A stretch of 64,000 nt of DNA. It comes from Branchiostoma lanceolatum (Eukaryota; Chordata; Leptocardii; Amphioxiformes; Branchiostomatidae). The translations under genes were made by a program, and so were the position numbers. The stretch lies in the NCBI RefSeq assembly GCF_035083965.1, contig NC_089730.1, forward strand, positions 17,591,242 to 17,655,241. The letters are read 5' to 3'. Below are positions 12,163-64,000 of the stretch, one piece after another. How positions within the stretch are numbered: the stretch's first letter is position 1; every line of letters begins with the position of its first letter. The notes beneath the pieces are model-generated. The model searched no databases and was not told where the DNA came from. It saw only the letters and a list, made by a program, of their open reading frames with translations.

Positions 12163-12203
<41 letters not shown>

Positions 12204-18646: not shown

Positions 18647-18807
18647 GCTGAATTTCTTTCCGTTAACAGAATAGATCCAAATACAGGAATGTAGCTATGC
18701 CTCTATGAAAAGAAGCGTTCAACTTTTTCAGGAGACGAAGTTTCGCTGCTACCCTTTTATGTACCTACGTTATGTGCGTGGTCTTCTCTTGTAATGACTT
18801 CTCTAGC

Positions 18808-25800: not shown

Positions 25801-26225
25801 TATAACCAATACCACAATGAATATGATAAAATCGTAGCGATTTGACTCGAATCCAAACTATGTGTTTTATCTATAACTGGAAGAGCTAGAGACTGAACAA
25901 AGAATATTTTGTTCTTCCCTCCTGCCCAGAGCTAGAAAGCGTCCTTGAAATCCTCCAGGAAGAACTGGGAGCGAAATGGCGGCGTTTCGTCCGCCATCTT
26001 CCCGGACCCCGTCAGGTCATCGATGTCGACATCGAAAGCATCAAAACGGCACATCCGCTCTACCGGGAGGACCAGATCTATCGCGCCCTGTCGCTGTGGA
26101 GGAAGCGCAACCCTCAACACGCTAATGTGGACAACATTCTCAAAGCGCTGGAGAAATGTGGACTTCTCGGTATCAGAGAAAAGGCGCTTAGAGTGTTAGG
26201 AAGGCGACCATATGCTACAGTTTAG
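22840..26225 (+). CDS. Coiled-coil protein with C-terminal Death domain
   Basis: Two exons, 22840-24376 (donor GTGCGT) and 25930-26225, join in phase 1 to encode 610 aa. The start ATG is preceded by an in-frame TAA. The N-terminal third is charged and I do not recognise it. Residues about 310-505 are rich in Glu, Lys, Arg and Leu and should form coiled coils. Residues about 517-600 have a Death-domain pattern: LGAKWRRFVRHLP, then ESIKTAHPLYREDQIYRALS, an LW-RKRNP-HAN segment and ILKALEKCGLLGI. Death domains assemble signalling complexes by homotypic contacts. Amphioxus has many such genes, and this one has no caspase, NACHT or TIR domain in view. A role as an adaptor in apoptosis or immunity is inference. 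No signal peptide or membrane segment is seen. Confidence 0.82.
24485..24705. mobile_element. Palindromic MITE in the Death-domain gene intron
   Basis: The arms 24487-24570 and 24601-24703 are inverted copies around a roughly 30-bp loop. They share AAATGTACACATTTTGT at the outer ends and TGCCAAACTGTCGTTTT at the inner ends. No coding capacity. Inserted about 110 bp after the exon 1 donor. Confidence 0.85.
24735..24960. repeat. AT-rich interspersed repeat with ATTTGCAT motifs
   Basis: Repeated CTCATTAAT-ATGCAAAT and TTTGCATAAT motifs resemble the larger repeat in the transporter intron at 44.9-45.97 kb and a fragment at 42.95 kb. The boundaries are uncertain. Confidence 0.4.
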
Positions 26226-26316
26226 TCATCTTTGTAAAGAGTTTTATTACTAAACAAACAAAATTGAAAACGCTAGTGGAAAACTTGCCCTCATTTTCAG
26301 AGCTACAATGACTTAT

Positions 26317-27357
26317 ACCCCCATTCCACTTGGACGGCGCTCTCACCGCGCTCTCACGGCGACCTCATTTTGGCCAGATCGCCGTGAGAGCGCCGACAGC
26401 GCGGCGAGAGCGCCATTGAGAGCGCCGACAGCGCGGCGAGAGCGCCGACAGCGCGGCGAGAGCGCCATGCGCGCCGTCACCTCGGCGATGGTTTTGAACA
26501 TGCTCAAAACCTTCGCCGTGAGAGCGCCGAGGATGGCGATCAAAAGACAAGCGCCGAGAGAGCGCCGAGAGAGCGCGGTGAGCGCCGTGAGAGCGCGGTG
26601 AGCGCCGTGAGAGCGCCCAAGGTGGGATCAAAGGGCCGCAGCGAGCGCTCAAGGATCGCAGCGAGCGCTCTATGAGGATTGAATGGTCTTAACTGTAGTT
26701 CAAACAAATTTTATTCTTGAAGTGGAGTATCTTAAATTTCATGGAATTTTGTGGTCAAATCATAGTTTTGCTCGTGGGTAATACAAATTGACCAATACCT
26801 ACAAGCAAGGAGGTTAAATTTGCTACAAGTACTTGCTTCCATTCAAATTAAATTCCCTCCAAGTTTTGTTGTCAGTGGTTCAAAATGTGTTTCAAAATTC
26901 TGTGATTTACGTTTCTATTATAACGTAGAAAGATAAAATATATCTATTGCAAACAGTTTACATGACAGACAACACAGACAAAAAACAAGTTGAACATTAA
27001 TACATTAGTTAAAACATACACTGAGCGACCGTGCAGCGACTAAAATTGAATCTGTTTTCCCCTTGATTTTATCATTCAAATATGATACAAGAGGTAAAGG
27101 TATGACTGAGAAGACAACAAAGCACACAAAACGTAACAAAATTTCGTTCTTTATCTCTGGAATTCGTTGAGTGATCTATAAAATCATTAAAAAGTTGCTG
27201 ACATTTGACATTTTGGTCGCGCTGAGAGCGCGCAAGGGTCGCCGTTGAGATTCCACTTGAGCACGTTTTCCAGGAGTTCGGCGCTCTCACGGCGCTCTGG
27301 ACCATTTTAGGTCGCCGTGAGAGCGCGGTGAGAGCGCCGTCCAAGTGGAATGGGGGT
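26317..27357. mobile_element. Non-autonomous DNA transposon with 48-bp TIRs
   Basis: The two ends (26317-26364 and 27310-27357) are perfect 48-bp inverted repeats that begin ACCCCCATTCCACTTGG. Similarity continues less perfectly to about 80 bp. The subterminal regions are packed with GAGAGCGCC-type units in both orientations; the interior is AT-rich and has no transposase frame. The element starts 91 bp after the stop codon of the Death-domain gene. No clean target-site duplication could be read; CTTA occurs near both sides. Confidence 0.88.
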
Positions 27358-34603: not shown

Positions 34604-36244
34604 TCACTTGCTCTTTTTGGAGCGGGCATCGCCATTTTTAACGTTAATGGTGTGGCCATTGGTTTGCCCTTGATTCTTAGTGTCATTAAAGTTCCAATCG
34701 ATTGGATTAAAGAGTTGGGCCGTCTTTTTGTAACACCAATATGGCGTCATCACAACGGAAAACAAGAACAGACCCCCTAAGAACACAGCTAGCAGGGGGA
34801 AAGGCGTTTCATTCATCTTGCTCCAGTATTTGTACGTCTGAACCCACAGAAAACACTCCACAACAGAACGGAGATGGAAGGTGTGAACGAGAACCACCTG
34901 GTTAACCTTCCAAAGCAAAGATTCCGCCGACCCGCATTTTAGTAACATCCAACAGAGGGCCGAAAAGGGCGTACTCATTTCCAGAATCAAACCACTTACA
35001 CCGAAATAGTGGAAACACCCGTAGTAGGCTACAAGGCTATGACCTAGCAGGGAAACAAAATGGTGGGCGTTAAGCAGAGGGTTGAACTTTCCGAATACGA
35101 GGTCAGAGGTCGTGGAGGCGATGGTCTCGAAGAGGAAGAAGCCAACCGTGACGTAGATGGTGACGAAACCAGTCGGCGTGGTAGCGTGGGCGACATCTTG
35201 GATAGCAACCTAAAGGAAAGAAATGCAATCACAATCTATATGTATTTATAGATAATGTATGCCAGCCATGCATTTGGAATCACAAACATATTTACACGAA
35301 AGACGTGTTGGGGGTCATGTGAACTTGAAAATTGCGAGGTAAATTCATAAGTTGTTCTGTAATTACATATAAAAAAAAAATTAATACACATGAAACCTTA
35401 TAGGAATAGTGAACATAGCGGCTGTTAAAAGATGTCGTAAAACCTTTCTCCTTTCTCACCTCGTCCCACCAGATGGCCCAACTCCCCATCACCGTACAGA
35501 AGACTCCATACAGAGCACGGACAACTGCCAGATTCCAGAAAACCTGGAAAAGAATTAAGCAAATTATGATATTTCTCAATCAGGATATTTTTGGTTTAAA
35601 GATGATTGAAAACGGACTTGATAACTTAATTTTCAGCAAGAAATGTGACAAATTTTTTTATGCAACAACAGTTTCTTGCCAGAAAAGGAAGATGTTGAGT
35701 TCATCATATGTCTTATTTAATTTCAGTTTACTAGTCATAGACGTAAGTCTTTTAGATAACTTCACATCACTTTCTGTTACTCTACGGTTAACGTGACAGC
35801 ATGTAGCATATGGAAATGAATCATTTCTAAAGCATAAAAAAGATAGCCCAGCAACAGTACCTCCTTTTTCAAAACCTCCTCCACAAAATTCACTACTTCC
35901 TGCATGCTTGCAGGGAACTTATTTTGACCTCCAAGTAGACTTTCACATCCTGTCAGTGTGATCGCTTACACAATCTTTCCTCCTATCCGTAACTTTACTT
36001 CATTCAAATAACTACAGACACACAAGAAAACAAACAAGAAAACAAAACCTCATTCACGGAGGTAACAAACCTTTTCCCGTGATCGTAAGTTGCGGTAGGT
36101 TTTTATCGCGTAGCTAGCGAGGGCGCAGACCATAAACACGGCCGCGAAGAACAGCAAAGAACCGCCGATGAAGACCAGCTTGACTCTCGGTTGTTTGTAG
36201 TCTATGGTCCCTAGGGTTGGGTGGATGGCTTCGACTAGTCCCAT
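34604..36244 (-). CDS. CLN8: CLN8-like TLC-domain ER protein
   Basis: Three coding exons on the minus strand (36244-36071, 35543-35460, 35209-34604), all phase 0 at the junctions, give 287 aa; human CLN8 is 286 aa. Exon 2 encodes VFWNLAVVRALYGVFCTVMG, and exon 3 encodes LILEMSTPFSALCWMLLK, ESLLWKVNQV and PYWCYKKTAQLF-P-DWNF, a CLN8-specific pattern. Several hydrophobic segments form the TLC domain, about residues 60-265. The last four residues KKSK form a KKxx ER-retrieval signal, as in the human protein. CLN8 in vertebrates is an ER cargo receptor for lysosomal enzymes and its loss causes ceroid lipofuscinosis. The start was set at MGLVEA because a splice acceptor (TTTCAG) sits directly upstream, so a 5' UTR exon must exist. 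A strong minus-strand donor, CAG/GTAAGG near 38574, is a candidate end for it. Confidence 0.92.
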
Positions 36245-41295: not shown

Positions 41296-42751
41296 TTGTA
41301 GCCATTTTTTTAATTCCTAAGCCGATGGTGGGAAGCAAGATATTAGAGATTCCTAGCTTCACGCCAGTGTTATAAATCGCCTCCCTTTTAAAAGTTAACG
41401 GACTGTTAGGAAAACATAACCTTTTGGCTTAGGGGGGGGGGTATACTGGTACCTGTCATGCAGCAATACGTACCCTGCGATTGTGTAATTACATAACCTC
41501 AAGCAAGTAATTGCCATTTGAAAATGATTAACCATATGTACATAAGACTCACATTTTAAAGTTTGTCGTCCGATGCCTTATGCTAACATCGTCACGAAAT
41601 CTTTTGGTCTCCTGGCTCGACGCAAAAACTCGACCTCGTTTAAAGACAGTCACAGTTTGGATTTACCTGAGAGATCCACCAGACGAAGACGGCGATTTTC
41701 TGCCGACGCTTTAGGTGAGAAATACTGGTGAAATTGACAGCATTTTATTTTCCATTCTTCCAATTTGTACGTATTAAAAGCAACTGACGTTTTTCATGAA
41801 TAAGCTTCTTATTGCACATAAGATAATAATTTTTCCTGGGAAGTTTCAGCTATATATGCGTGTATCTCTCAAGTTTTGCTTGTTTACCCAACGATACATA
41901 GGCACTAGGGGTATCAGGGTCTCAACATGTGGTGTGCTTAAGTACAAAATAAATAGGCAGTGATTGCTTAGGGCAAAGATCGGGTGTGTGCTTGTGTTTT
42001 ACGTGCAGAGAAACGTGAGTTATATTTTGTTGTTGTTTGCCGACAATCTTAAATATTCGTGTCAAAATGCTGAAATAGTTATAATCTTAGCTAGACTTGG
42101 CATGGAAGGAAATATGAAACTTGCAAGCCACAATTCAAATGTTTGTGTCCAGTCACATTAGTCGTACGATCGCAAACTGAGAACATTTTGGGGAGAGTCG
42201 TTTATGTGTCGAACAAACCTCAACCAACAACATGCCTGACGTTACGCTGCCTCACATACTTTCGGCTGCTGATATTGTCACAACCTCAATTGTGAACGAC
42301 GCCCCATGCCGAATGTAACCAACCGATATGTAAATTCGTTGATATGCCACTCCCTCTTACCGGGTCTATTTACTACCACAGAAAATTAACGTTTTGCCGA
42401 GTCATATCAGGGTCTAGATTCCATACTATTTTGTATTTTGTTCAGCCATTCGAGGCATCTATCATCTGAATGCATATGGATGTTATAAGAAAGTTACGTT
42501 TGAAAAGAAAAAAAAACAAACTGTAATTCAAAGCTCCTGATATCATTTGTCTGTTTGTTTCTTTGTTTGTTTGCCCCCCTACCCAATATGTCAGATGACA
42601 TTATAGTATGCTGTGATTTGTGCAAAATACCCCATATCTCTGCTAAATTATAATAACTATATAAAATCATCAAGACACCATAAGCTTTGAGAATGACTTA
42701 ATGTGTGAAGATCTTTTGTTGCTTGAAATGTTCCGACAGTGCTGAGTTACC

Positions 42752-45700
42752 ATGGCGACCGAGGTGCGATACTTCGGTGTCTGGGACTACGTGGTGTTTG
42801 CCGTCATGCTTTGCGTCTCGGCAGGAATAGGACTCTACTACGCATGCACGGGCGGTAAGCAACGCACACAGAAGGAGTTCCTGATGGCAGACAAGGTCAG
42901 TGACCTCTACCTTTTAGAACTAGTCTGTTCCTAGTGAAAAATGTATCATGAGATATAATTCATGCAAATGAGGTACTTGTTTGCATAATACATGTGATAC
43001 AGCTTCGACATGTCACTACAAAATGTGGGGTCGTGGAACTCTAGCTCGTTAATTTGTTTTAGCATATTTGGATGACGGCAATTGTGCAATAGGATATCTG
43101 TAGCAATGGTTGATTTGATCCTAGATAAAACATGAGTCACAGTGTCAACTATATATTCGGATATTTGGAGGATTGGCTGGTTTGTCTCTACTCCAATGTT
43201 GTAGACATGCAAAAAGTATCAACTTAAGGCTACACCAACAGATGTATTGGCGTTAGGATACCCATAAGGAGCTTGTTTTATCTTAAGACGAAAAAAAAAT
43301 AACAAAAACAAAACACAGTTACTCAAGCAACTGGATATGATTTTGGAAGCGGCGAGACGTTTCAGGCAGCATACACTACGGCGAATACCTTTCGTCATTT
43401 TTTGGCGTACCTTACTCCCAGAAAAGATGTCTAACCTTCGAAATTCAGTTATTTCATTATTTGTATTCATTTACCCAGGGTCAAACATATCGCCACAAGG
43501 GCGGTTTTCAATATGCCCAGCAGGCATACATAGTCAAAACATACATATTAAGTAACAAAATATAAAAGATGCAAAACAGCTTTGGGACAATAATGATAAA
43601 AGTGCGAAGCAATGTACTTCAAGGTAATATGACAAACTGAAGACTAACATAAAACAAGCCAAATAAATGTTACAAATGAAGTAAACGATATAGATAATGG
43701 AATGACGCACCTTGTTCTTTTCCTTCCAGTCCATGTCCATAGTGCCCGTGACCATGTCCCTACTAGCCTCGTTCATCTCCGCCATCACGGTGCTGGGTAC
43801 CCCGGCGGAGGTGTACAATAACGGCACCATGTTCTGGAACTTCGCGGTGGCAGACGCCTTAGCCATGGTGGTGGTAGCGAGGCTATTCGTGCCGACTTTT
43901 TACAATCTCGGACTGACAAGCACCTATGAGGTCTGGTCATTTGTACAATTTTCCCACTCTTTTGTAGCAGTTTTAGATCCCTTATTTTTGGCAACACCCG
44001 GTACCACATGGCCTAGGGACGGAGCCTTCAGTACTCCAGATATAGGTATCGAGTTTTAACCTCTAGAATTATAAAATGTATCTAATTGAAAACGTCCCTA
44101 CAACGTTATTGTATATGAAAATACCATGTAAATTCTTAATGGCCTTTGAGAATTCATAACTACTCTGTTGTAAAATCAACGATTTTAACATTGAGTAAGA
44201 TGATACCATGATATTTTGATTTCACATTGCAGATAACAATCTTTCTTTTCTTCATGCATGTCCAGTATCTAGAAATACGTTTCTCCAAGCCTGTCCGGTT
44301 ACTTACTACAGTAGTGTTTATGGTGAACATGGTGAGTTGACAGATAAGCAGTTAACAAGATACTTTCAAAAATAACAATTTCAAATAGAAGAAAATGTTA
44401 GAAACCATTGAGAGTTGCACATAGTTAACATCATCACATAATTTCTGATTGGATTTAATTTTCGATAAGAATTTAAAGGACATTGTAAAACTACAAGTCA
44501 GTTTCTTCGTTACAATTGTTGGCAACAACTTGTAGTATTTCAATTTTTGATTTTGGGAAAAAATTATATATTCGTCTTTTTTTCTTTACTTCTATTTTCT
44601 TGCTACAGCTGGTGTACATGGGGCTTGTTCTGTACACGCCCTCATTGGCTCTCAACGCGGGTGAGTATAAAACCACGAACAGACAAACGCACACATTACC
44701 ATAACATGTAACATGTTTTAGGAGGAAATAAAACCCACATCGAAATAGGACATACATGTAATTACCCTGAAAGCAAATGATGTTCAGGTAGAATATTTGT
44801 TAATGGGACAGCACGCATTTCACATAGATAAAGAAAATATTGTTGTGATGGAAATTGATCGAAGTCATTGCACCACAACTTCAAATTTGATTTACATCCT
44901 TCATGTTTAAGCATGCAGCATGCTCTTTTTATCTCCATGAAAAATGGAGATATTGTTTTGGGTGTGTCTGTGTGTGTGTTTGTCTGTTTGTGTTTCCGCA
45001 CTACTGTAGTCAGCATAACTCAAGAACCTCTAGATGGATTACGATGATATTTGGTATGTGGGCAGGTGTTGTGAAGCCGAAGTTCAAGGTCAATTTTGGG
45101 CCCCCTGGTATGTGACCTTGGTACTGCAGTAGAAATTCAATTTTTGTATCTTTTGACCTGGACGTGCTGTGGTCTTGATTTTTGGGTGGCAGATAGCTTG
45201 TGATGTAATAAAGAAGTGGTGTAGGTTTGGGCCCCCTAGCAGCTTCCTCTGGAACTGCAGGGGCGTTTTTGTAAAAATCTTCTAAGGAGAATAACTGAAC
45301 AAAGGAACGATGGATTTCCATGATATTTATTATGCAAGTAGCTTAGACAGAGATGTACACAATGAAGTGCAAATTATGCTAATAGGGACTTAATTTGCAT
45401 AGCTAATGAGGAAAATCTATATGTGCAGTGTTTTCCATTATAAGACTCAAATACATGTACCTTATGTAGTTTATGGGAAGGGGATCATCAACAGATACCA
45501 ATTATGCAAATAATTTCCTAATTTGCATAATTAATGCAAAACACCGTATCTCATCTAAATTGGAAAATTATAGGATTGTCAATATGATACTTAGTATGCA
45601 GGTAGCTTAGACAGAGATATACATAATGAAGTGCATATTATGCTTATTGTGACTTAATTTGCATAGCTAATGAGGAAAATCTATATTTCAAGTGTTTTTC

Positions 45701-48700
45701 ATTATCAGACTCAAATGCATGTAACATATGTAGTTTATGGAAAGTATGAATTAATTTGCATCAACAGATACCAAATATGCAAATAAATTCCTAATTTGCA
45801 TAATTAATGCAAAAACACCATAATTCATCTAATTGGAAAATTATACGACTGTCAATATTGCAACATATGTAAGTTAGATAAAGGTGTTTATGACCAAGCA
45901 TATATTATGCAATTGTGTAAGTCATTTGCATGAATAGAATTGTTCATGGAGATATGAGGTCGTGGAACTCTTGTTCTTCCAGTAACCGGCCTTACACTCT
46001 GGGGAGCCGTTGCAGCAGTAGGCGTAGTGTGTACGTTCTACACAACTTTGGTGAGTTACATTATACAGAATACAGAAATTTCTTTTCAACAAGAGTATTC
46101 ATTTTGTTCGTTCACGCAACCCTTTTTTCACATGACCAGTTGCTATCATAAACCTCCTAATTCACGATTGAATGAAGACCTTTATTGTACACATATACTC
46201 ATTGGTTGAGTACAGGTCACAACAGAAAATTTCACAGTTTACAAACACATATATTATATGTGATAGGCTAGCACTAGTCTAATAATTGCATGGAATTCTT
46301 ATTGATGGTGTAGATATAGGTATGCATGTGCTTTATAATCAAGGGTTTGTCTAAAGCTTTTTGGAACTTCATTGTGTTGCTAAGGTGTATGAAATAGGGA
46401 AACATATTATGCATCAGTTTGTAAATCTCAGCTCTCTCTTCTCCCCTTCCAGGGCGGCATGAAGGCTGTGATGTGGACAGACACGTTCCAGGTAGTAGTG
46501 ATGGTGGCGGGGTTCCTGGCCGTCATCATCCAGGGAACTATCGAGGTCGGGGGACCAGCCCGCGTCTGGGAGATAAATGGACAGGGAGAGAGGCTGGAGT
46601 TCTTCAAGTAAGAAGGGACGGTCTTCTTCCCGCTAAACAAGAAAGGACGGTCTTATTCCCGCTACGTGCTGGACAGAATTTTAGCGCTGTGTTTTCAGAT
46701 ATCAAGCATTTCTATTCCTTTATGTTTTTTAACCCTCTAGTTTGTATTATTGTCTGTTTGTGTGTTAATGGGCAGTTAAGAAAGTGTGTCTACTAGATTT
46801 CAATGGCAGTATAATTGACACTGCCACTCCTTGTCGCATGGTGGTGTTGCAGCAAGGATGATGCAGTTACAAACCTGACTGTATCGATATGATATATCGC
46901 CCTCCTGATCTCTAATCAGTTTGTATTGTTTTGACTTTTTATGTCGCTTATCTACGTTTATTAATTCGGTCAACACAGCTTTAATCCAGACCCAAGGATC
47001 CGACACTCCTCTTGGGGCATCTATATCGGAGGGATCTTCATTTGGGCGTCTGTGTATGGGGTTAACCAGGCACAGGTGCAGCGGTATCTCAGCTGTCCCT
47101 CTCTCAAACAGGCTCAGAAGTGAGTATACAGCCTCCTTTTCAATGCTTTAATGTTCGGACAATTAACAATGTTTTAGCGCGTTTGTGTTGCTAATGTAAA
47201 TTGATGTTTTTGCGGGACTCGATTTCATGGAATTTCATGACGTAACCATGATATGTTGTTCGTAATAGCACAGTCTTGCGATTACAGGAATCGAAATGCT
47301 CAGTGTTATCACACCGGCTTGTAGTAAGAGTAAGGGAAAATGTAGTTGTAGCACTCTTGAATGAATAGCTATGATCGATGAAAAAAAGTTACTGACAAAT
47401 GAACGTGACATTATATTTATAAAATATCTGTTCGCGTCACAGCTACTGTGCTAGTTACATGAAAGAGTCAAACGTTACAACAACTACGGTTAAACACATT
47501 CAAATTGACTTCTCAACTGCTGGTACCTTAAGCGCCCAGAATAGCGGACGCCATAGTCACGTGGGAACAACCACCTCAGAGTCAGGGACGCTAACATGCT
47601 TCCGCCCGCGTTCTTGTGCTGCAGCGCCCTCTACTGGAACATCCTGGGACTGGTTATACTAATCTCCTTTGCAGTCGTGAGTGGGATGGTGATGTACGCG
47701 CGTTACTTCATGTGTGATCCGAAGACGATTGGAGCTATTGACAACTCAGACCAGGTAGCATAGTGTCTCTTTTTACATTTCGAGCTCATGGCGTTTATGT
47801 GGTTAAAAAGAGACCAGATTAGAAACTGGTCCCGCATATTCCGAAACAAAATAACGCTGCAGGAAGCAAACTGTATAATCACCGTGACTACATTGACTTT
47901 CAACGTATCAAAACCTTTTCCACATTGCTTTTATCGAGCTTCTGTGCTATGCTATATCTAAAACTGGTCGTTACTTCATAAATTCGATTACTTTTAGACA
48001 ATTGGTTTTTTAATTGAGGATGCAATAACTAATAACAGAAGATGGGTGGAAAGAAGTTGAAGCAAAATGAAGATTAAACCAACCTCCTCGTTTTAACATT
48101 GTCCCTGCCACAGATGATGCCGTACTTTGTGATGGACATCCTTAGTAAGTTCCCGGGCATGCCTGGTCTCTTCACGGCCTGCGTGTTCAGCGGGGCCCTC
48201 AGCACCATGTCCTCGGGACTGAACGCGCTGGCCGCCGTAGCGCTAGAGGACTTCGTCAAGCCTTGCTTCCCGAACTTCAGCGACGAGAAATATACATGGA
48301 TATCGAAGGGTCTAGGTGCGTGCTACTAATGTTAAACGCATGCACCGTACATAATCCAGCTGTCTTGTCACGGAAACAGCTATCTAGTTTTCGTGTTTAG
48401 TTGTGTCATTGCGTAGAGTAGATATTTTTACTTTCATAGAATTGTTGTAAACTAGCAGTAGTAATGTACCCAGCAGTGTGGACATTTGGTACCAAGTAAA
48501 ATAAAATAAAAAATGCGGCGCACACTCTATCTCGTAGAAAAAAAGATAAATATGTCATAATTATCCTTATAGAACTTTCATTGTTGAGCCTTCGCCTATT
48601 AGCTAAAATCATTTTAAGGTGTAGAATAGCTATGTTGATTATGCTCAACCTAGCGGTTGTGATATATCATACGAGTCTTAAATATCTCCCTGCCTTTCGC

Positions 48701-50339
48701 AGTTATGCTTCGATACATTACAAGTGAACCGCGAAAAATGTTTCCCCTCCAGCGATGTTTTTCGGCGGTTTGATGATCGTGATGGCGTACGTCGCTTCGT
48801 TCCTGGGCTCGGTGGTCCAAGCAGCGCTGAGTCTGTTCGGCATGGTGGGGGGGCCGATGCTCGGGATATTTGTGCTCGGCCTGATGTTCCCGTGTGCCAA
48901 CAAATGGGTAAATTCTACAATGCCGCATTTTTGTGTGAATGATTTCAGTTTACCGCTAGGTTACGCTCTTGCGAGATTAATGCGGTCCCAAACGTAACTG
49001 AGTGTTGAGTTTTTTTTTTTTGCAAACTATTGCCCTGTCTGCGAATGGAGATATTTTTCTGTGAAGTACATGTCGTAAGCTACAGACATATGGCCAAAAT
49101 GTATCACAGATGCGTGCGTTATGCCACGGTATTGTTGTTACAAGCTTACTGAGGATGTACTCCAGTGCAATTTGTCGGGTAGACGTCACAGGCGTTACAC
49201 TCTTAATCGTAATGCAGCCTTAGTACACAGCTTTACTTTTGTTCTAACCCTAAAACGTCACTCTATATTTTGTTAACTACAAACAATGATGGACATTTAT
49301 GTTAAGATGTACCCTTTTCAAGTATAACGCTATGTATGGAGACCATTGCGTTATTTTCTACTTTAAAACTAGTTGATGATATACACGTTTTTTACAGGGT
49401 GGGCTGGCCGGCCTTTTAAGCAGCCTCTTCCTCACTCTTTGGGTCGGGATGGGCGGTATCGTTTGGCCGCGGGCTCGATGGATGCCGCCGGTCTCGATCG
49501 AGGGATGTCCCGCAGACTTTCCCGGAAACATCACCGCAAATTTCACCACGAGCCCCACCATGTCTACCAGCATGACGCAGCACAGTTTCACCACTATAGC
49601 CGCGGGCAACGGGTAGTAAGTGATTTGAAAGATCTTCATTTTACACACAGTGTGCATGCGTGCATGTATGCAAGTGTGTTTAACGTATTGGCGTGTTCGT
49701 TTTTTGTGTGTACATGTGTGTCAATGTATTTATGTTGGTCAATGTATCTTTGTATGTATGCGCGCGTGTGTGTCGATGAGTTTGTTTTACAGTACTATGT
49801 CACTTAACATGCTATGTTAACTATGTTACATATTACTTAAAATGCATAAATAAGAATGTCTAATATTACCTATACTAGATACCATATACGCTATTATCAT
49901 TGCCAAGTTATTTTGTCTTCTGTATCTTCTTGTACTTCACACAAACTGTATAATAACATTACCGCGGAGATGATTTGACCATTTTGTTCAAAACCTTTAT
50001 TGATATTTTTTTTGTTTATCCAGTCCACCTGAAGCAGCGTTATACGAGCTGTCTTACGTTTGGTTCGGCGCCCTGGCCACGGTGACTTGTGTCGTCGTGG
50101 GACTAATAGTGAGCTTTGCAACAGGTATCCATACAGTACAACCGCCAGGTGGCGTTTTGTCTGGAAAGCCAGATCATACAGTGTACAGACACAATCACCT
50201 TCTATCGGTGATGATGCAGTTTGGAAGTTCCCAGCGTTATAAGTTTGGTGACGACAAAAGTTCTAAAGTACATAATGGGATGTACTGGTGTAAATGGACT
50301 TGCTTAATAGAGACATGAGGCTTTATAAAATCCGTGAAT

Positions 50340-50397
<58 letters not shown>

Positions 50398-51149
50398 CAC
50401 ACACACACACAAACTGATCCGTTGCCGTACAAGCAGATCAATATCAAAATTATTTATCTAAGATCTTATTTTATCCAAGAAAAGAATTTGAAAAAAAATC
50501 ATTTTTTTTCCTAATCTTGACAATTCCTCTTTCGGGTTTTAGGGCGACAGGATCCGAAGGACATGGACCCGAAGCTGTTCATCCCGTTTTACGACCGATT
50601 CTTCTGCTGCCTGACCAACAGTTGGCTGACGTGGCTGCGCTGTGGAGTGCCACCCGGAGAGGAGGTAAGCCATAAACTGTCCTGAAAGCAAGCACAAACG
50701 GTAGACGAACTAGAACAAAAAATTTCATTGCAGTAAATCCACTCTTTATTGAATCAAAAGACTCATTATGCCATAATTTCTCGGTATGTGTTTAAAGTAT
50801 TGTGAACTGTCATGTTGTACAAGTTGGTCAGGAGTCAAAGCGAGATACATATGCATGTAATGCTGCGGTCGTCACACCGCCGGCGCAGCTGGGCATTCCA
50901 AGTCACTTCGCGTGGCCCCGTGTGTAAACGGAACGCTCCTGAGTCGACCCAGGCTGCGAAATACGTGTGTGTAACCCCATCCAAAGTCTTTTGTGTCTTC
51001 ATGTGCACTAAGTCTATGTTTTCTCTCTTTAGGACATTGAAGCGGTAGAAGTCAAGATGTCCAACGCTGCCAGCAATCCAACATTCTTGCCAGATGACGA
51101 AGAGACCGAGAAAAATGGAAGTGAAGTTGAAAATGTTACCAGTTTGTAA
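42752..51149 (+). CDS. SLC5A8: Sodium-coupled monocarboxylate transporter (SLC5A8/SLC5A12-like)
   Basis: Fourteen exons splice in phase to 623 aa: 42752-42895, 43730-43930, 44266-44331, 44609-44660, 45983-46050, 46453-46607, 46979-47119, 47625-47754, 48114-48315, 48753-48907, 49398-49615, 50024-50124, 50543-50664, 51033-51149. The product follows SLC5A8 closely: [11 protein letters not shown] near the start, [68 protein letters not shown] and SMFGMVGGP-like [11 protein letters not shown]. It should be a 13-helix plasma-membrane symporter that imports lactate, pyruvate or short-chain fatty acids with Na+. The exon 11 loop has NITANFT glycosylation sites. The C terminus TSL fits a class I PDZ ligand. 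The exon 2 donor (GTCTGG) is weak but phase and homology demand it. SLC5A8 versus SLC5A12 or a pre-duplication ancestor cannot be told apart here. A 5' UTR exon is likely, with an acceptor just before the ATG. Confidence 0.94.
44890..45976. repeat. Composite interspersed repeat with 264-bp tandem duplication
   Basis: The 5' part contains CTCAAGAACCTCTAGATGG and GGGCCCCCT motifs. Next, two copies about 264 bp apart, starting near 45338 and 45602, share GTAGCTTAGACAGAGAT, TTAATTTGCATAGCTAATGA and CAACAGATACCAA. ATTTGCAT/ATGCAAAT octamers recur many times. It ends at GAGGTCGTGGAACTCT, only a few bases before the splice acceptor of transporter exon 5. A related fragment with the same end is at about 42.94-43.05 kb. 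Confidence 0.75.
50343..50412. repeat. CA microsatellite
   Basis: About 33 CA dinucleotides in transporter intron 12. Confidence 0.96.
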
Positions 51150-52305: not shown

Positions 52306-53086
52306 TACTCTACCAACACAGATGAGCTTTCATGCGAATATAAGTAAAAGCATCCTTATTTTTAGAGGTTAAAGTAGAAAGCACTGAGAAAATTAGGCAT
52401 GGGAACCTTTGTTGTTGAAAATTGTACATTTCTAATTCTAGCGACCATTTTCATTATTTTCGGAGGTAGACTAAAAAAACATACAACGTCACTGTCTGAA
52501 ACCTGGGACTAGAAAATGACAGCGAATAAGGTTAACCCCCTGTCCCGGGTGCACTTTGAATGGCGACATAGCTAGAATGCCTGATCCTGGAGTTATGGTG
52601 CGGACAGAGTGTGCGCGGACACATAAAAGAAATAGCTATAGACTTTCTGGTATTCCTGGCAATTGTACGTATACTACACTATTAGACAAGCTTTAGGAAT
52701 AATATAATTGTGATTTTTTAATCAACTAATTTTACATGATAAAATATAGGTTATGAATTATGAAATATAAACACTTCTGTGTCGTTTCCTTAAACTGAAC
52801 TTCGCATTTCCATATCCCCTATGACGTGCCGCTAGCTCCTCGAATTATGATATGCACAGAGTGTGTGGAATTTATGACAATCGGGCATATGTTACACTAT
52901 TTGGCTTGCCCCTGAACTTGGTTTAAATTACTGGAACGGAAAAGAAAAAAAATGGAAAAGGAAAAAAAAGGAAGCAAAAGGATGACATTGGTTAGTTCTT
53001 AGTGACCCACGGCCGCCATGACCTCAGGCTGGAAGCTAAATTGAACGAATATCGGACATTTGACGCTAAAACTGAGATAAGCCTAC

Positions 53087-53311
53087 CGGTGTACGATCCC
53101 AACAAAATGGGATCGTCATATGCCCCCTCGTAGACGTCTAACCAGTCGTAGTTTTCCTCCAAAGCAATCGATACTGGTGCCATCTTCACCCCTTCCCCCG
53201 TGTTGACTTCTATGGTCCATGTACAGTACTCGTCGTTGCCGTACTGTCCAGGGTAGTTGGGAGAGTATACACGGCCAGACGATTGCCCGGTAATATAAGC
53301 ACCGCGGTTAC
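53087..53311 (-). pseudogene. Orphan CUB-domain exon
   Basis: On the minus strand a splice acceptor (ATATTTAG) opens a 225-bp exon that ends at a GTAGGC donor. It is phase 1 at both ends. The translation has the CUB core: GRVYSPNYPGQYGNDEYCTW, then EVNTGEGV, then EENYDWLDVYEG. CUB domains are extracellular beta-sandwich modules in developmental and immune proteins. The rest of the domain and any neighbouring exons were not found on either side: the ORF beyond the donor does not resemble a CUB end. It may be a gene fragment, or one exon of a gene whose other exons I did not recognise. Labelled as a pseudogene fragment with reserve. Confidence 0.55.
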
Positions 53312-53574
53312 CTAAATATTATGGTAAGATGTTTTTAAGTTTATGTCCCCGAACAGACCTGGTTAAAACATGTTGTATATGACAGACAGTTAAGTGAACG
53401 CCATAAAGAACAAGCACTTTACTCACACAAGAAAAAAACAAGTCGGTTGTAATTGTAGTTTACCATGCTCTTGAGCGTGGCCTGTCAGGTGATGTATTGT
53501 TTTTTGTTTTTTATTGGTCAGAAATTACCCGCAATGGCAGCCTTTCAAGCGCTGAATTGATGCAGGGTATTACA

Positions 53575-54527: not shown

Positions 54528-54662
54528 AGTAGTAGCTGAAAATTCACACGCAAAAAAAACAAACTCGTTTTAAGCAGACGGAGGATTTCAGTGCGTTGCA
54601 GTCTGTTCCTGGCGGTGACATGGAGAATCAGCCATCGCCTCCAGCACAGTTGATCAAAAGAG
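54483..54662 (+). promoter_or_regulatory. Possible TATA box and 5' exon of the chitinase-chitin synthase gene
   Basis: TATAAAAA lies in the right arm of the MITE. About 130 bp further a candidate exon ends at 54662 in AGAG/GTGAGA. This exon carries an ATG at 54620 in good context; read across to the exon that starts at 55569 it gives an 18-codon frame that stops before the main frame. It would therefore be an upstream ORF. Only consensus signals support this. Confidence 0.3.
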
Positions 54663-55574
54663 GTGAGAACTTCAGTTTACACATTATATGTCGCTCTACT
54701 TAATTGATCCTCCTTGCAAGCTTGACAATAGTCCCTTGTAAACAATCCATTCGCACGTTCTTTAGTCATGCTGATTTTAAGCGTCCGGTGACACAGACAT
54801 ACACACAGGATAACACTTATACAAACGCCATGCAAAACGATATCCCCATGAAAAAGTCTTTCTTTTTTCATGGAGATAATAAGAATAAGTTTATTGCAAA
54901 TTCTTGCCCGAAGGCTAAATGCAAATAACGTTCATAAAAGAACAGTGTACAAAATAGGTTTAAAAGCTGCTTATCTAAGTTATACAAACGTAATTGTCTA
55001 TAACTAGTGAAGGGCATACGAACAGTATTTGTATGACTGTGGTTGTGTGCAAATGTGTATCTGTTCACCCCTAGCATAGATTAAACCACCACATAAAAGA
55101 TAAACATACGCACATACTCTCTTAATTACATCTATAGAACTTTAAAGTTACCTCCTACTTCTTGCTGTCCAACAATTAGATCGTCCTAATTTTGAAATCA
55201 AATCCCCCTGTCTGTGATCGTGAAGTCAACAAAAAACTTTTTCCCACGCCGCGCTTCAGTTTGTTAGTTTGGAATCTTGCATATATGCGGGCCCTATATT
55301 GTGTTGTCAACAAATGGACGAGTTGGCTTTTGTGAAACACACCAAGATATTATTTAAAAAATATTACAAACGTTTAAAACATTTCAGTGCACTTTTTAGT
55401 GACAAAATTCAGACGTTGAAATAAAGGACTTCCTAAATATTTGGACTAGATCCACACTAGTAACAATTCTAACCACCAATTAGAATTTAAAAAAAAACAT
55501 TACATAAAAACATGAAAATATCGTGTTGTTCAAAATTAAGAAAAATATAGCATTGCTTTCTTCTCCAGGTGTCC

Positions 55575-56951
55575 ATGCATAACCTGCAGGAAAGGCGGCG
55601 AAGCTTCGTGAAAATGGGGACTCTACCGTTCCTTATTCTTCTTACTGCGGTCCACGTAGGAGGTGTGTTTTATTTGTTATTGTACTTTTGGTGTAAAAGG
55701 TTTTCATAATTCCATTTTTTCAATCTACACTGTGGTAAAGTTGGGGTGTACTTTGCAATTTGATTTTAATCTAATTGACTTCTGTAAGTATATATCAACA
55801 CGTTGAAAAAGGAAAGGAAGGCTACTAAATAGTTTCATTTTGTATCCAGATTTTTTTGTCAATAAAGATTGTTCACTAGTGTTCTGTAATAGTTTAGACT
55901 GGAGTATAACGAAATTGATGTAAAGAAAGACTTTGCCACATTGTTATACAGAGAATTTCGACCTGCCTTTTTTTTACAAGTCTTCTAGTACCTTAAAGTT
56001 AAATGACTATTTGATTATTCTCTACATGACACTTCTAAAGTGTGACGTAAGACCTGGCTCATAAAAGATTGGTAGAAGTCTGTATGAAATCCTGTCTTTG
56101 GCCAAAGAAGACAACATGAGTCAACTGGTGTCATTTGCAGTTGTCTGTCGGGAGTATAACTACCTACACCCTTTGCGTCAATGTTCTAAGACGACACAAA
56201 GCATGAAACATGTACTTTGTTTTTAGTGGCAGAGTATCGAGTGGTTTGTTACTACACCAACTGGGCGCAGTACAGGAGGTCACCGTGGAGTTACGTCCCA
56301 GAGAACGTTGACCCGAATCTCTGCACACACGTCATCTATGCTTTTGCAAATATGGAGGACAATCAGCTGAAACCGTATGAATGGAACGACGAAGACATGC
56401 CGTGGGGGAAAGGCATGTACAGCAGGTATGATATGTTACCTTGATGGTAAAATTATACCAATATGTAAGAATATTGATCCTGGGCCGATTTAAATCTGGG
56501 ATAATTTCTAAAATTATACTAATAATTCTATTGAATTTAGATATTTTTGGCTTTGTAAATGCTGTATGAGACAGCCAATTTTTTTTAAAAGTTATCAGAA
56601 GCGCTGCTTGTGTCGATATTTACTTGATAAAATCACCTACATCTAGGATAAAGGTTGTCTTGAGATATTGACGTTTGGATGTCAAAATGTTATCATTTTG
56701 TAAGTATAGATAACCAGTTTTCATTTTTTACAAAAACCTCAGATGAGTCATTCCAAAGTCAAATCGTTATTTTCAAACTATATCAGCCTCTACACCAGAC
56801 GGGCATCAATGTTTACACACAAATCTTTGGTATTGAATGTGAATACGAACTGTTTATACATGTCATGAAGTGTCACACACACACACACGTACGCACACAC
56901 ACACACACACACACACACATGCATGCACACACAAACACACCCAGACATGCA

Positions 56952-57043
<92 letters not shown>

Positions 57044-60000
57044 CACACACACATGCACACACCTACGCGCGTTTGTTGAATCTGATGTAAAGTCCTAAAG
57101 CTGATGTTATTGTCAGGCTCAAGGATAAACTCAACAGTGCCAGAGGCGAAGTACCCAAGATGCTACTAGTGGTGGGAGGATGGAACTTCGGGACACAGCC
57201 CTTCAAAAATATGACGTCATCAAAGGACAACAGGAAGACATTCATCGAGACCTCAGTCCCGTTTCTCCGACGGCACGGCTTCGACGGTCTTGACCTTGAC
57301 TGGGAGTATCCTGAAACCGATGACAAGGAAAAATTTGCCTTGTTACTTAAGGTAGTAGTATTACGATATATTTTTTTACTACGTCTACATTTCAGAGTGG
57401 CATCATGGAAGGAGATATAACCTCCTTGCATGATGCCACTCTGAATTGTAGACTTACACCGGAGAAAAGGATATCGTAATACTATAAACGTTATGTAACG
57501 GGCCTGTTCGATGGAGTTTGGTTCGTGGTGTCTTTCTTTGCATTCCAAAGGATTGTACCTCAATGTCGTACATATTTCATTCCGTATAATTCTGATAGTA
57601 TATTTTGTTAGTTATACATATTAGATACAAGTTCTTTGAGATGGTCAAGATATATCTATAATTGCAAGAATCTTTCTACAATGATTAGATACCCGCGTCC
57701 ATGTTAGTATCACTTTTTCATTAGTAATGTTGTATGGTAATGCCATTTTGGCTACCTGTCGTCAAATATTCCGGATGTAAACAAATACAAAGATTGCTGA
57801 TATACCTCTACATTTGTGGTATCGTCATTATTTCCCTATGAACAGGAACTTCACGAGTATTACGATAGCGAAAGCGTTTCAACAGGGACAGGGAGGTTAC
57901 TACTAACAGCCGCCGTATCCGCCGAAATAAGCCTAATTGATACAGGATACAACGTTTCTGAACTTTCCAGGTAAGTCACTTGTTTTTTTGTTTGTTTCCT
58001 GTACTGTTGTGTTTCCTCGAAATGCTGTTGCAGATATTCTTTTACCAGCTAGTGCCACCGTTCGGATGCGTCAAGGAACGACCGTGGCGCTTCGGCTTGA
58101 GATCCATATTCCCCAAGCAGAGGTTTCGGTCGAGTGGGGTAGCTCTTCGGTCAAGAAGAGAAGAGAGAGGAACTTAAAAAAATCCCGGACACTCCTACCC
58201 CACTCGACCGAAACCTCTGCTTGGGGAATATGAGATCCATACTTCTCTCTGTGTTTGTGCTCAGCTGGGCAGGTGCTAGCCAGTTAGCCCCCCCCCCCCC
58301 CTTTAGTAGGGGCTGAACCTACCGCCATCCACGGTCAATGCGCAGTGTGATGGGCTAGTCGCTTCCCCAGCAACAACAAGATGCGATGTTAGGTCCTTTG
58401 CGGTGTAATATAATCAGCTGCTCGCGTGCGTGTTAAACCGAAGGGCGGTTATACCGGCTACATTATTACAGATATACATGTACATGAGTATCTCATTGTT
58501 TCTCTCGGTTAAGTACTACATGTAATTGCCAATCCAGGCTAGTTATGATTACCAGTCCCCCAGCTGAACTGAGGAGAAGTTATAAAGAACGAGATTAACA
58601 GTAGAGACCATTATTTGTCGACTCTTGATTTCGAACTCATTTGTTGTCTTCCGCGCTCACTAAAGTTTCTTGTTCACTGTATAACGCCCTTATCAGATGA
58701 ACCATATGTCTGCCCCCCTCCCCGACTTCATAGGTACCTAGACTTTATCAACCTGATGACCTATGACCTGGCGCCAGATGCATATGACAGGACGATAACT
58801 TGGCACAACAGCCTGCTGAAAGCACCTCCGAATGTGACGGACGATTTAGCCACTTTCAATGCGGTTGCTATAAATTTCATGTTGTTTTCAAATCGAGTCG
58901 ATTCCCATCTGTAAATACCGTTGTTCACTTTGTTAAAATGACTTGAGACTTGTGTACTGCTAGGTTCACTATCCAAACCTGGGTCCGGCTGGGCTGTTTG
59001 CTGGATCTCAAACAAAATAACTTAGACAATAATGTGCGTTTGATCAATAATCCATCAACAATTTTGCTTCAAACACTTATTGGAAATATAAAGATGTACA
59101 GGAGAATAGAAGTTGGCCTAATTGACAAAATGGCAATGGTAAATACTATAAATGATACATCCTACGGCTATAATTGTTGTTTCTACAACGCATGCAACAC
59201 ACAAACAATATCCGATTAGTTACTTGTGAGTCTACAAAACAGCATACAGGAGAATAAATATAACCGCATATGTCTTCTCTTTGTACCTAGGCCTCGGCCG
59301 TTGAGAAATGGATACAAGAAGGTGCAAGCCCTTCTCAGCTTGTCTTAGGTATACCTCTGTACGGCAATTCCTTCCGACTGCAGTCGAGCCACAGCACGGG
59401 GCTGTACGCGCCTGTTGAGGGACTCGGGCGGGGACAGACCTACACCAGGCAGGACGGCTTCCTGGCGTATTACGAGGTACAATAGTCAAAACCTGGGGAT
59501 AAAGATTTCATTTGGTCTCGCCCACTGAACAACCGTGTGAGCAGTCTTTACGTCCCAATTCCGGAGTAAGGTCATCGTAATCACCTAATGGAAATATGTT
59601 TAGTTAACCTTCAAACCGTGCTGATAAATGCATTTTAGCCACGAGGCTTCTTTTTATACTTTGCTGTTCCTCCGTTATTGCCATAGAATACATGTCTACC
59701 AAAGTATCATGAATAAAAAAAAAGACTATGATATTACAAATACATCTTTGTCCATTTGTGATGATGTTTCAGGCAAAGGGATGCAAAATATAAAACACTG
59801 GTAGTTTTAGTGATTTCGCAATTTTTTGGAGGGCCGGAGTAGGTTTTTTTACTAAATCATTTACTTTTAGCTTATCACCAATAACGTTTTGTTAATGATA
59901 ATTGCATTAGATTGAGGAGATAAATCAACTTATCAGATAAATGTAGGAAATTGAATATAGGAAACTAAAGGGAAATAGGGCAATGTCCTAGCAAATATCG

Positions 60001-63000
60001 TAATGCCCAACTTTTTGTTAAGGCGATTCTTTTGTAAAATGATGCTGATACGATATTTGTCTTGTTGCACAAGATGAGAAAACTTTCTCTTAATCTTGAT
60101 TATTGCAGGTTTGTGAGCTGCTTCAAACAGGAGGAGTGAGGGTTTGGGACCAGACCAACATGGCCCTTTACATGTACCGAGACAGCTACTGGGCTGCTTA
60201 TGATGATGAGATGACCATCCAAATGAAGGTAAGAACCGTATTCAATGCAATTGAAAACTATTTGATTGAGATGGCACTAGAGAGTAGAGTGCTAGCTTTG
60301 TATTTGAGAGAATACACAGCCAAAGCACAAAGCACTGGTGAGATAGAATATGCAGAAAGGGTGTCGAAAAAAAAGCAATGTGACAGTTATTGATAATAAA
60401 GACACATCTACTAGATGACCTTTCCTCTAGTGTATTCTTGCGCAACTGTCTGGTCTATTGGAACGGATGTGATAATGATGGACCCCGTTGATACTGATTA
60501 AGGTCATAACAATAAATATCGCACACCAAACAATTTAAACATAAAAGAAAAGATATCAAACAATATCAGCACTATTGGAATATAATAATAATCTAATTCT
60601 AATTTAGCATATTTTGATTATACACCCATAACGTCATAGTCATGCATCAATGATCGGCCAACAATGAAGATATGAATCGTCAGACCTGTAGCCATAAAAA
60701 AACCAACAGAGTCAGCGAAGTAAGCATCTCGGTCTGTTTAACTAACCATAAGTTGTGATTATTGTAGGTGGATTGGCTGAAGAACAGGGGTCTTGGAGGC
60801 GCAATGATATGGGCTCTAGACTTCGACGACTTTAGCGGTTCGACCTGCTCCTCACAGCCTTATCCACTACTTACGGCTATCAACAAGGCCTTAGGGCGAA
60901 ATGTCACCGAGGACAAACCTGAAACTGGCCATGGTAGCTGGGCAGGTGGAATAGGTACATGACATGTTATTTTTTAGGGTTATGGCAGAGGTTTTCTAGC
61001 CCGGTACTTTGAGTGATGCATTCGTATTCAAGCAAAACAAAAGAATCTTCTTGTGGGAATTAGCTAGCTCAAAGTAGTTTGCACATACACGATAAAGAGG
61101 GATTGTGTTTAATGTTTTGAGGAAGCAATTTTATAAATTATGTCGAGTAAATTAATTGTGCTCAATAGTAAATAAATAGCAACACATTTTCTATAAGTCT
61201 ATCTAGTTATAGACCTAGGGCAAATACGTGAATATGGCATTAATTTTCTCATTGTTGCGTAGAAACCTTGATACCTTGGTTTCAAGGTATCTTGATACCT
61301 TGGTTTCAAGGTTTATACCCAATGATGAAAAAAAAAATTGTTATACTCACATCTCAAATATTGAATAAAAACAAACTTACATCTTGCATGCGGCAATAAT
61401 AGTAGCCCCAGAAATATGTTTAATATGGCATGTTAATAGTCTCTACGAGACTAACCGCGCCGGCTATAGGTAGAACATTTGCCGGGGGACTTTGGCCACG
61501 GAGGGTAACATTCGCAGGCGCAGTTAGGGTTGCATATTTGACCCTCTCTCCGTAGCCGACTCCCTTTATACAATTAACTCTATTTGGCCAAATTCTACTA
61601 TTTTCCCAGCGACCCGTGGAGGCTGGTAGAGCCTAGCATGTTAAGAAGTTAAGATGATTTTTCAACTCTTATTTTCTATCTAACAGGGAATGATGTCCTC
61701 AATATCATTGTCGTCAGAACAGTGATATACGTCGCTTTGGCTCTGCTGTTGGTGATGTTTTTCACCTGTAGGACAATAGCGAAGAAAAGATGTCAGCAGA
61801 GGCATGAACAAAAGTGAGTGTCAAAATATTTAAAGTGTTCATGTCCCACGAATATTGCATTTTCTTAAATCTCAAGCAAGATTATGAAAAAAAATGTATA
61901 AACGGAAAAATTCACCTTTCTGATTTTATTCAAACAAAGTGACATTCCCAAAAACATAATTTCCAGCTCTTGATTCTTTAAACATGTAAATATACCAAAA
62001 GTTGAGCATACCTCTGAAGATGAATGTGATCATGGCAACCGTGCTGGTACTGTGGCTTGCGCAAGAAAAATCATTTTAAGAAACAAAACGTGCTTAATCA
62101 TCTTAGCCCAATTGAGCTGAGTAGCATGCATTACATTACATATTTGCCTTGTTTATTTATCCAAACTAATCGGTCACGAACCGCCTTTGATCTCTACACC
62201 AAATGTTGCACGACCCATCATATGACAAAGCTTTTACAATGTGGTAATACTCGCTTCTCAGGGGATACGTGGTCTTCAGGAAACTGATTTTATTCTATAA
62301 GCTTGTAAACATTTTTCAACCTGTGTATCAATGGACGTATACTAACTGGCTTTTCCAATCTTAGGGAAAATGAAACAACGGCAAAAAGAAACGGAAGCAT
62401 CTTGAATGAAGATAAGAAAATGAGGAAAGAAGACAAACAACAAGACATCAAGTTGCCTTTCACAGTTCTGAAAGTCCTGGTCTCCGTCGTCTTTTTCCTC
62501 GGGCTCCTGTTCTGTCTAAGTTCCGGGAAGGTGTCGATTATATCTATTTCAGGATGCTTGGCACAGGCAGGGTCCGACAACGTCGCTACAGGGTGAGAAA
62601 CCTTAGTGCTGGTGACTCTTGAACTAACACAATCGTCTGAATGAAAAATATGGTACAATATCGTGGCTAGAATGCTAGTATGTGACGTATGGTGCTATTG
62701 GTAACACCGGTTTACTCAGGATTATTTTTTCTAAATGAAAATGATGGTACACAACATTAATTAATAGTTGACGATAGAACCCAGTGTTGGCAACCTTTAT
62801 AAACTAACAGTCCCCCTTAAACAAGAAATACATACGGTAAATCTCGTGGTAACATTTTCATGAAGAATAAGTCAAAATTGCCGCTTTTTCCAATTTCTTA
62901 TGAGGACAGAAAAAAAAGTTCGTTTTATCGCATTTATGTTTAATCACGGTCTCGTCTTGTTGTTTACTGCTAAGCCCAAAAGAAATTGGATTATCAGCAG

Positions 63001-63720
63001 TTGAGTTTATTTGCATCAAAGACCATAGTCATTGACGAATTCAAAATCAGCGTTTTTTCTTGTGTGCTTTTTTTGGCCAGATCCAACTCCGACAACATGA
63101 CTCTTGTTCAAAACTGTGAAGGACAGAGCCCAGAGACCGTGATAAACATGATCTTCATCATGATGATGATCCCTTACACCATCACATTCCTGAGGTGTCT
63201 TTGGGTGACCGGGCTGAAAGACATCCATCCATGGCCTACTGGAAGAGCTCTAGTCTTGGTAAGTACTGAATTGTATGATTTTCTTGTTTCTTAAGTCCTC
63301 AATAAGGCAATGTTGATAGCGTTATATTGAAAACAAAATAGGTGGTAAAAGGATATCTCGCATCAAACTGTTTTTGTTGTTGTTGATGCTACTTACTCGT
63401 TGTCACAGACGACAGGGATAGTGCCCTGAGTGCAAACATGTACATTCATCAATGTAATAGTTTCATACGGGTGTTATTTTGTCGAACCGTAACAGAATCA
63501 AGAATGGCAACTGCAAATACGACAAATACTGATAGTGATGTTCTTCGATTGATAATTGGTCTGCATGTACTCGGCGATATACCCCCTCCCCCATTTTAGG
63601 TAACAGCAGCTGTTGCACCTGTACCATGTACGCAAACCCCTTGGTGCTTCCTTACCAGTATTGTTAGTGCTGATATTATCCGTTTCATCAATTTGTCTTT
63701 TTTTCCTCAATTCTTATTAG

Positions 63721-63775
<55 letters not shown>

Positions 63776-64000
63776 CATATGTCAGAATAATTGAATGGAT
63801 TGTTCTGTTAACGAATCTATTCTATTGTTTTCATTGAATTCCAGGGCTTGGCAACCAGTTCGGCTGAAGTATTCGGCCTTTTACTGTTTATGCTGAAAGT
63901 TCTCACTTCAGTCGAAGGCATCACCGGCGTTTTGTTTATGAACAACATCTACATAGTACAGATTCTTTACCAGTTTATCTACGAAGTTTACAAACTCATC
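55575..64000 (+). CDS. GH18 chitinase fused to chitin synthase N-terminal region (partial)
   Basis: Twelve exons join without a stop to 653 codons and run off the window: 55575-55662, 56227-56425, 57117-57351, 57846-57970, 58734-58863, 59291-59476, 60109-60228, 60768-60954, 61687-61813, 62365-62592, 63081-63258, 63845-64000. Residues 1-30 hold a signal peptide (an alternative start is M14). Residues about 31-425 form a GH18 domain with [13 protein letters not shown], the catalytic DGLDLDWE at 152-159, INLMTYDL and [16 protein letters not shown] membrane helix follows, then a basic cytoplasmic stretch and four more helices; [12 protein letters not shown] and [11 protein letters not shown] resemble the N-terminal membrane region of animal chitin synthases. 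The GT2 catalytic domain would lie beyond the window. The exon 5 donor (GTTGCT) is weak. Exon 8 to 9 is the junction between the two halves, phase 1, with a GTACAT donor. A single fused gene is the simplest reading; two mis-joined genes remain possible. Confidence 0.85.
56875..57062. repeat. CA microsatellite
   Basis: Long CA tract with ACGC and ATGC interruptions in intron 2 of the chitinase-chitin synthase gene. The Cys/Val and Thr/His open frames are artefacts. Confidence 0.96.
57356..57483. mobile_element. MITE next to a splice donor
   Basis: Inverted ends TAGTATTACGATAT and inner TTCAGAGTGGCATCAT blocks fold on a short GGAGATATAACCTCC-centred loop. The left end starts four bases into the intron that follows GH18 exon 3. 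Confidence 0.82.
58099..58239. mobile_element. MITE with CCAAGCAGAGG termini and 8-bp target duplication
   Basis: Arms of about 36 bp (ATTCCCCAAGCAGAGGTTTC and onward) are inverted at 58107-58142 and 58196-58231. The flanks read TGAGATCC on both sides, an 8-bp target-site duplication that fits the hAT superfamily. It sits in the intron after GH18 exon 4. Confidence 0.88.
61262..61315. repeat. 24-bp tandem duplication with hairpin
   Basis: Two copies of CTTGATACCTTGGTTTCAAGG, each itself nearly palindromic, lie in the intron between the GH18 and membrane halves. Confidence 0.7.
61440..61575. repeat. Dispersed repeat related to 8112-8165
   Basis: GCCGGCTATAG, GAACATTTG, GGCCACGGAGGGTAAC and, further right, an inverted GACCCTCTCTCCGTAGCC. 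It lies in the same intron as the 24-bp duplication. Confidence 0.4.
63720..63780. repeat. TA microsatellite
   Basis: About 25 TA dinucleotides with ACAT interruptions, upstream of the last visible exon. Confidence 0.96.

Follow-up and report, generated by a model that had tools for sequence, protein, structure and literature searches.

A gene at the downstream end of a 64,000-nucleotide stretch of the Branchiostoma lanceolatum genome (NC_089730.1, positions 17,591,242 to 17,655,241 of the forward strand; the whole stretch is called the window below) appears to join a chitin-cutting enzyme to a membrane region of the kind found in chitin-making ones. Probably this is a single gene, encoding a complete and presumably active GH18 endochitinase held outside the cell, a membrane helix contributed by exon 9, and a polytopic domain. 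The last of these most likely corresponds to the membrane-embedded N terminus of an animal chitin synthase, whose GT2 domain would then lie past position 64000. The best reading of such a fusion is a self-editing chitin synthase.

From sequence comparison, the identity of the first half as a chitinase domain can be regarded as certain. Residues 34-381 of the predicted protein cover positions 1-317 of the 317 positions of Pfam family PF00704 (E 1.1e-85), and a PDB search gives 140 distinct sequences at E <= 0.001; the best solved relative among the best 60 of these 140 is acidic mammalian chitinase (AMCase; E 1.4e-104). The catalytic motif of GH18 enzymes has the form DxxDxDxE, and because it is intact here, as DGLDLDWE at residues 152-159, the chitinase is likely to be enzymatically active. 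An earlier note on this stretch, which had read the gene as a GH18 chitinase domain continuing in frame into membrane helices, is borne out in its first part by the full-length Pfam match, the PDB relative and the intact motif.

The gene model consists of 12 phase-compatible exons (55569-64000), which when spliced give a stop-free frame of 653 residues, the last exon being cut by the end of the window. Exon borders were set by eye at splice sites, and AG and GT are found at all 11 introns. The model reproduces the 12-exon stop-free chain, the junction at 60954/61687, the start at 55575 and the length of 653 residues that the earlier note had given. Its features, with the basis for each in brackets, are as follows.

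54620..54662, + strand: possible upstream exon of 43 nucleotides with an ATG and the donor GAG/GTGAGA (speculative)
55569..55662, + strand: exon 1, signal-peptide-like, hydropathy 1.69, with Met at 55575 or, likelier, 55614 (gene model, hydropathy)
56227..56425, + strand: exon 2, in which the GH18 domain begins (gene model, Pfam)
57117..57351, + strand: exon 3, GH18, with the catalytic motif DGLDLDWE (gene model, motif)
57846..57970, + strand: exon 4, GH18 (gene model, PDB alignment)
58734..58863, + strand: exon 5, GH18 (LMTYDL), with the weak donor GCG/GTTGCT (junction backed by homology)
59291..59476, + strand: exon 6, GH18 (gene model, PDB alignment)
60109..60228, + strand: exon 7, GH18 (gene model, PDB alignment)
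60768..60954, + strand: exon 8, last part of the GH18 domain (WALDFDDF) and a short linker, with the weak donor TAG/GTACAT (gene model, splice scores)
60960..60962, + strand: in-frame TGA met when exon 8 is read through (sequence)
61171..61369, + strand: two AATAAA hexamers resembling poly(A) signals, both in intron 8, one from 61171 and the other from 61364 (sequence)
61687..61813, + strand: exon 9, the bridging exon, a transmembrane helix (residues ~430-448) followed by a basic segment (gene model, hydropathy)
62365..62592, + strand: exon 10, a charged, probably cytosolic linker followed by a helix (~499-517), with an internal Met at 62420 (gene model, hydropathy)
63081..63258, + strand: exon 11, a loop with the sequon NMT (547) followed by a helix (~561-579) (gene model, hydropathy)
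63845..64000, + strand: exon 12, incomplete because the window stops here, with a helix at ~599-620 (gene model, hydropathy)

Translation is likelier to start at Met 55614, residue 14 of the model (GTGAAAATGG), than at 55575, the start of the earlier note that the model otherwise reproduces, since the later methionine stands directly before the hydrophobic, signal-peptide-like stretch. Further upstream, the candidate exon at 54620-54662 has a good start context (GACATGG). Joined to exon 2 (56227) with exon 1 skipped, it is in frame and would give the chitinase an alternative N terminus that lacks the hydrophobic stretch, a phase agreement that by itself has a one-in-three chance; joined to exon 1, it yields a short upstream open reading frame.

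Across exons 9-12, the used frame holds no stops, as against 21 and 8 in the two other frames (per-exon counts summed), and the GC content is 41-59% in the exons as compared to 34-37% in 10 of the 11 introns, with intron 4 at 48%. Sites were scored with a generic splice matrix and ranked as percentiles of all window sites of the same kind. Above the 90th percentile stand 11 of the 12 acceptors, the exception being that of exon 8 (83.8), and 8 of the 11 donors; the three lower donors belong to exon 8 (89.6), exon 6 (88.3) and exon 5 (58.8). The exon 5 junction, despite its weak donor, is backed by the alignment to solved chitinases, which runs unbroken across it. Elsewhere in the window no paralogue of the gene was found, the three matches outside the gene having E values of 7.7 or worse.

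In the model, exon 9 bridges the chitinase and the membrane region. Between exons 8 and 10 there are only two open, phase-fitting exons of 60-300 nucleotides with site scores of at least 0, namely 61556-61625, which encodes no helix, and 61687-61813, which is exon 9 and has a hydropathy of 2.71. An exon resembling it (at least 100 nucleotides, acceptor at least 3, donor at least 3.5) turned up in 6 of 2000 dinucleotide shuffles, and in 0 of 2000 when a hydropathy of at least 2.5 was also demanded, although these limits were placed just below exon 9's own values after exon 9 had been seen. When exon chains running from exon 8 to position 64000 were searched for, the best one, a chain with 61556-61625 and not the chain with exon 9, scored 49.6; none of 200 dinucleotide shuffles exceeded 6.3, and 21 of them produced a full exon chain of any kind. 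The exon chain beyond exon 8 is thus better than chance. In the used frame, codon scores are 1.4 for exon 10, 17.6 for exon 11 and 2.2 for exon 12, whereas the other frames of these exons score below zero.

Exons 9-12 encode four hydrophobic helices by hydropathy (residues ~430-448, 499-517, 561-579 and 599-620), and the series of membrane helices that the earlier note had placed in frame after the GH18 domain is therefore present from exon 9 on. A possible fifth helix at the very end of exon 12, seen on reading the sequence, lies below the hydropathy threshold. Several N-terminal membrane helices are found in animal chitin synthases as well, a trait that is not specific to that family. The loop between the first and second transmembrane helices (TM1 and TM2) carries 14 lysine and arginine residues, that between TM2 and TM3 carries 1 and that between TM3 and TM4 carries 3, and the sequon at residue 547 sits in the TM2-TM3 loop, on the outside. 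Because the loop charges and this sequon agree, the predicted topology places the chitinase outside the cell and the long TM1-TM2 linker in the cytosol.

A number of observations weigh against the preferred reading. Exon 9 has a negative codon score (-12.3), so that the case for it comes from its helix, its splice sites, its phases and the absence of stops, and not from codon usage; the best automatic chain took 61556-61625 in its place, perhaps a consequence of a codon model trained on GH18 exons, with exons 10-12 as modelled. Sequons 468 and 475 fall in the segment assigned to the cytosol, a mild objection to the topology. The donor of exon 8 is weak and is followed directly by an in-frame stop, such that, with the donor unused, translation would end at TGA 60960-60962 and give a chitinase without helices ending ...GGIGT, and both AATAAA hexamers stand further downstream in intron 8. 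Such an arrangement would also be produced by two adjacent genes on one strand. The first would encode a secreted chitinase that stops at that TGA and is polyadenylated within intron 8; the second would encode a membrane protein of its own, perhaps an ordinary chitin synthase, with its start near Met 62420, an in-frame ATG that precedes the first helix aligning with an unverified insect synthase sequence. Two genes are nevertheless unlikely, as exon 9, with its good splice sites, open frame, two correct phases, membrane helix and lack of any like in the shuffles, would be left unexplained, and the sole ATG-led start exon within intron 8 with a donor score of at least 0 leads to exon 10 rather than exon 9 and has a poor donor (0.9). 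The same weak donor, stop and hexamers, standing alongside a good exon 9, could instead reflect alternative transcripts of one locus, whereby intronic polyadenylation gives a secreted chitinase and full splicing gives a membrane fusion, both functional. This account overlaps with the preferred single-gene reading and is possible but somewhat doubtful, for ~0.7 AATAAA would be expected in intron 8 by chance from base composition, compared with the 2 seen. The splicing that joins the two halves is predicted from genomic signals. That the junction is an assembly chimera, or the gene a decayed one, is highly improbable: the 64 kb of the window are free of N, the 12 exons contain no stop or frameshift, the GH18 catalytic motif is intact and the phases agree across the junction.

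The chitin synthase identity of the second half of the single-gene reading is a plausible lead from weak sequence resemblance. Exons 10-12 align colinearly with the N terminus of an insect chitin synthase, a weak match to an unverified query sequence, with a score of 59, versus at most 45 for control open frames of other window genes, taken both as 13 overlapping pieces and as three complete sets. Against this, block shuffling gave a score at least as high in 10 of 2000 cases (highest 87), and class-preserving shuffling did so in 13 of 2000 (highest 71). When the whole window was searched with the same query, moreover, the in-frame matches in exons 10 and 12 had chance-like E values of 9.2 and 1.7, and the top match (E 0.081) fell at exon 11 in another frame, across stops. 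Exons 9-12 have no Pfam match above the curated cut-off and no PDB match at E <= 10, and relatives were confirmed neither among 37 pattern matches in viral contigs nor among 192 in prokaryote genomes; for the whole protein, the one pattern match in viral contigs was likewise not confirmed. The viral and prokaryote scans used a single sequence and reach close relatives only, and, PDB and Pfam apart, the collections searched contain hardly any animal sequences, if any, making these negatives weak evidence either way. The GT2 (Chitin_synth_2) domain of animal chitin synthases carries the motifs EDR and QRRRW. A synthase motif matches four PDB sequences, three named chitin synthase, which are presumably fungal and oomycete, and one hyaluronan synthase. 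The lack of Pfam and PDB matches, and a resemblance that is weak and drawn from an unverified reference, would suit a chitinase anchored by some other polytopic domain, transporter-like or uncharacterised. This explanation is quite unlikely given that the resemblance is colinear over exons 10-12 and exceeds that of the control frames, and that Pfam offered no rival family either. Hence, of the fusion proposed by the earlier note, the GH18 domain in frame with a polytopic membrane region within one gene model stands, whereas the synthase identity has met with a weak resemblance. Two candidates for exons 9-12, connexin (E 0.014) and protocadherin (E 0.1), were rejected, both lying below the curated Pfam cut-off and reflecting a composition of helix plus charge.

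How a single-gene fusion of chitinase and synthase might work can be sketched tentatively. One polypeptide would make chitin in the cytosol, export it and cut it with its own extracellular chitinase, and the gene would also yield a secreted chitinase through a transcript ending in intron 8, a scheme that as a whole is more conjectural than the fusion itself. The extra helix of exon 9 would keep a secreted-type chitinase outside while leaving the following linker, and the later GT2 domain, in the cytosol; chitin chains synthesised inside and pushed out through the synthase would meet the tethered chitinase on emerging, and their trimming or release would fix chain length and packing at the synthase. 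An oomycete chitin synthase is reported to move its own chitin product across the membrane (PMC11546553), and the membrane-bound beetle chitinase TcCHT7 is reported to be required for the organisation of newly formed chitin but not for breakdown of the old cuticle, its authors proposing that such enzymes process nascent chains (PMC5891080). It is because of this translocation and of the organising role of TcCHT7 that trimming or release of nascent chains is favoured here. A chitinous gut membrane has been described in Branchiostoma floridae (PMC6109156), and it is a possible site of use for the fusion protein.

The remainder of the window fits an animal genome. A Pfam scan covering 20 of the 496 open frames of at least 50 codons placed five frames above the curated cut-off, with a PR domain, a death domain, a TLC domain, a sodium:solute symporter and a CUB domain. 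Fragments of a PR-domain (PRDM-like) zinc-finger gene extend over 9439-14080 on the minus strand, with PF21549 at 10783-11022 (E 1.8e-17), and a further PR-domain fragment (11850-12263) and a C2H2 finger (9439-9753), both on the minus strand, are below the cut-off. The death domain (25890-26222, E 6.2e-12) lies near repetitive arginine/serine-rich frames (26254-26672), and the TLC domain (34607-35209, E 4.1e-11) and the CUB domain (52995-53318, E 7.3e-13) are both on the minus strand. A sodium:solute symporter gene of several exons spans 42746-50682, as judged from a PF00474 match at 43706-44056 and otherwise by eye; the frames 48078-48326 and 49380-49613 in this region have no Pfam match. A match to PF00906 (Hepatitis core antigen) at 18317-18694 on the minus strand falls below the curated cut-off (E 0.00036, 20.6 bits versus 22.6) and probably reflects basic-residue composition. 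No RNA families at the gathering score and no tRNAs were found in the window. Within the introns of the chitinase gene, a perfect 38-nucleotide inverted repeat with a 52-nucleotide spacer (58105-58232) occupies intron 4, the sole GC-rich intron, and is possibly a foldback or other small mobile element; a 35-nucleotide inverted repeat (91%, 7-nucleotide loop) lies at 57380-57456, shortly past exon 3, and a long CA repeat at 56874-57063 in intron 2.

As a rule, the synthase and the hydrolase of a given polymer are distinct proteins, which have to come together in the cell. Mosaic chitin synthases of Branchiostoma, in the work of Guerriero in 2012, reportedly carry discoidin and SAM domains. A fusion of GH18 and chitin synthase was not found in titles and abstract starts among the matches listed, a coverage that does not extend to that Branchiostoma study, and an earlier report is thus possible. 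If the fusion is real, it would point to hydrolysis as an integral part of chitin assembly, in line with what the TcCHT7 authors propose (PMC5891080), and it would open a way to study the control, in an early chordate, of the gut chitin membrane documented in Branchiostoma floridae (PMC6109156).

Vertebrate-type GH18 chitinases such as AMCase and chitotriosidase share the domain over its whole length, and the catalytic motif is intact here as well; the difference is that in the lancelet gene membrane helices come after the domain. AMCase and chitotriosidase are secreted proteins, and TcCHT7 too is of the GH18 type. A hydrolase beside a synthase of the same polymer is found in plants with KORRIGAN, and in bacteria with the cellulases of cellulose synthase complexes; unlike the proposed fusion, these are separate proteins, and the polymer is cellulose rather than chitin. 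Comparable in architecture are the mosaic animal chitin synthases, in which, as proposed here, extra domains are fused to a polytopic synthase, with N-terminal myosin fusions described in lophotrochozoans, C-terminal SAM domains in type I enzymes and further domains besides, both type I and type II being reported from Branchiostoma (PMC3942024); in a term search of that text, the words chitinase, GH18 and hydrolase are absent. Comparable in presumed function is the insect group III chitinase TcCHT7, which has two catalytic chitinase domains and an abstract that mentions no synthase region, and which is likewise a membrane-bound chitinase that acts on newly made chitin (PMC5891080).

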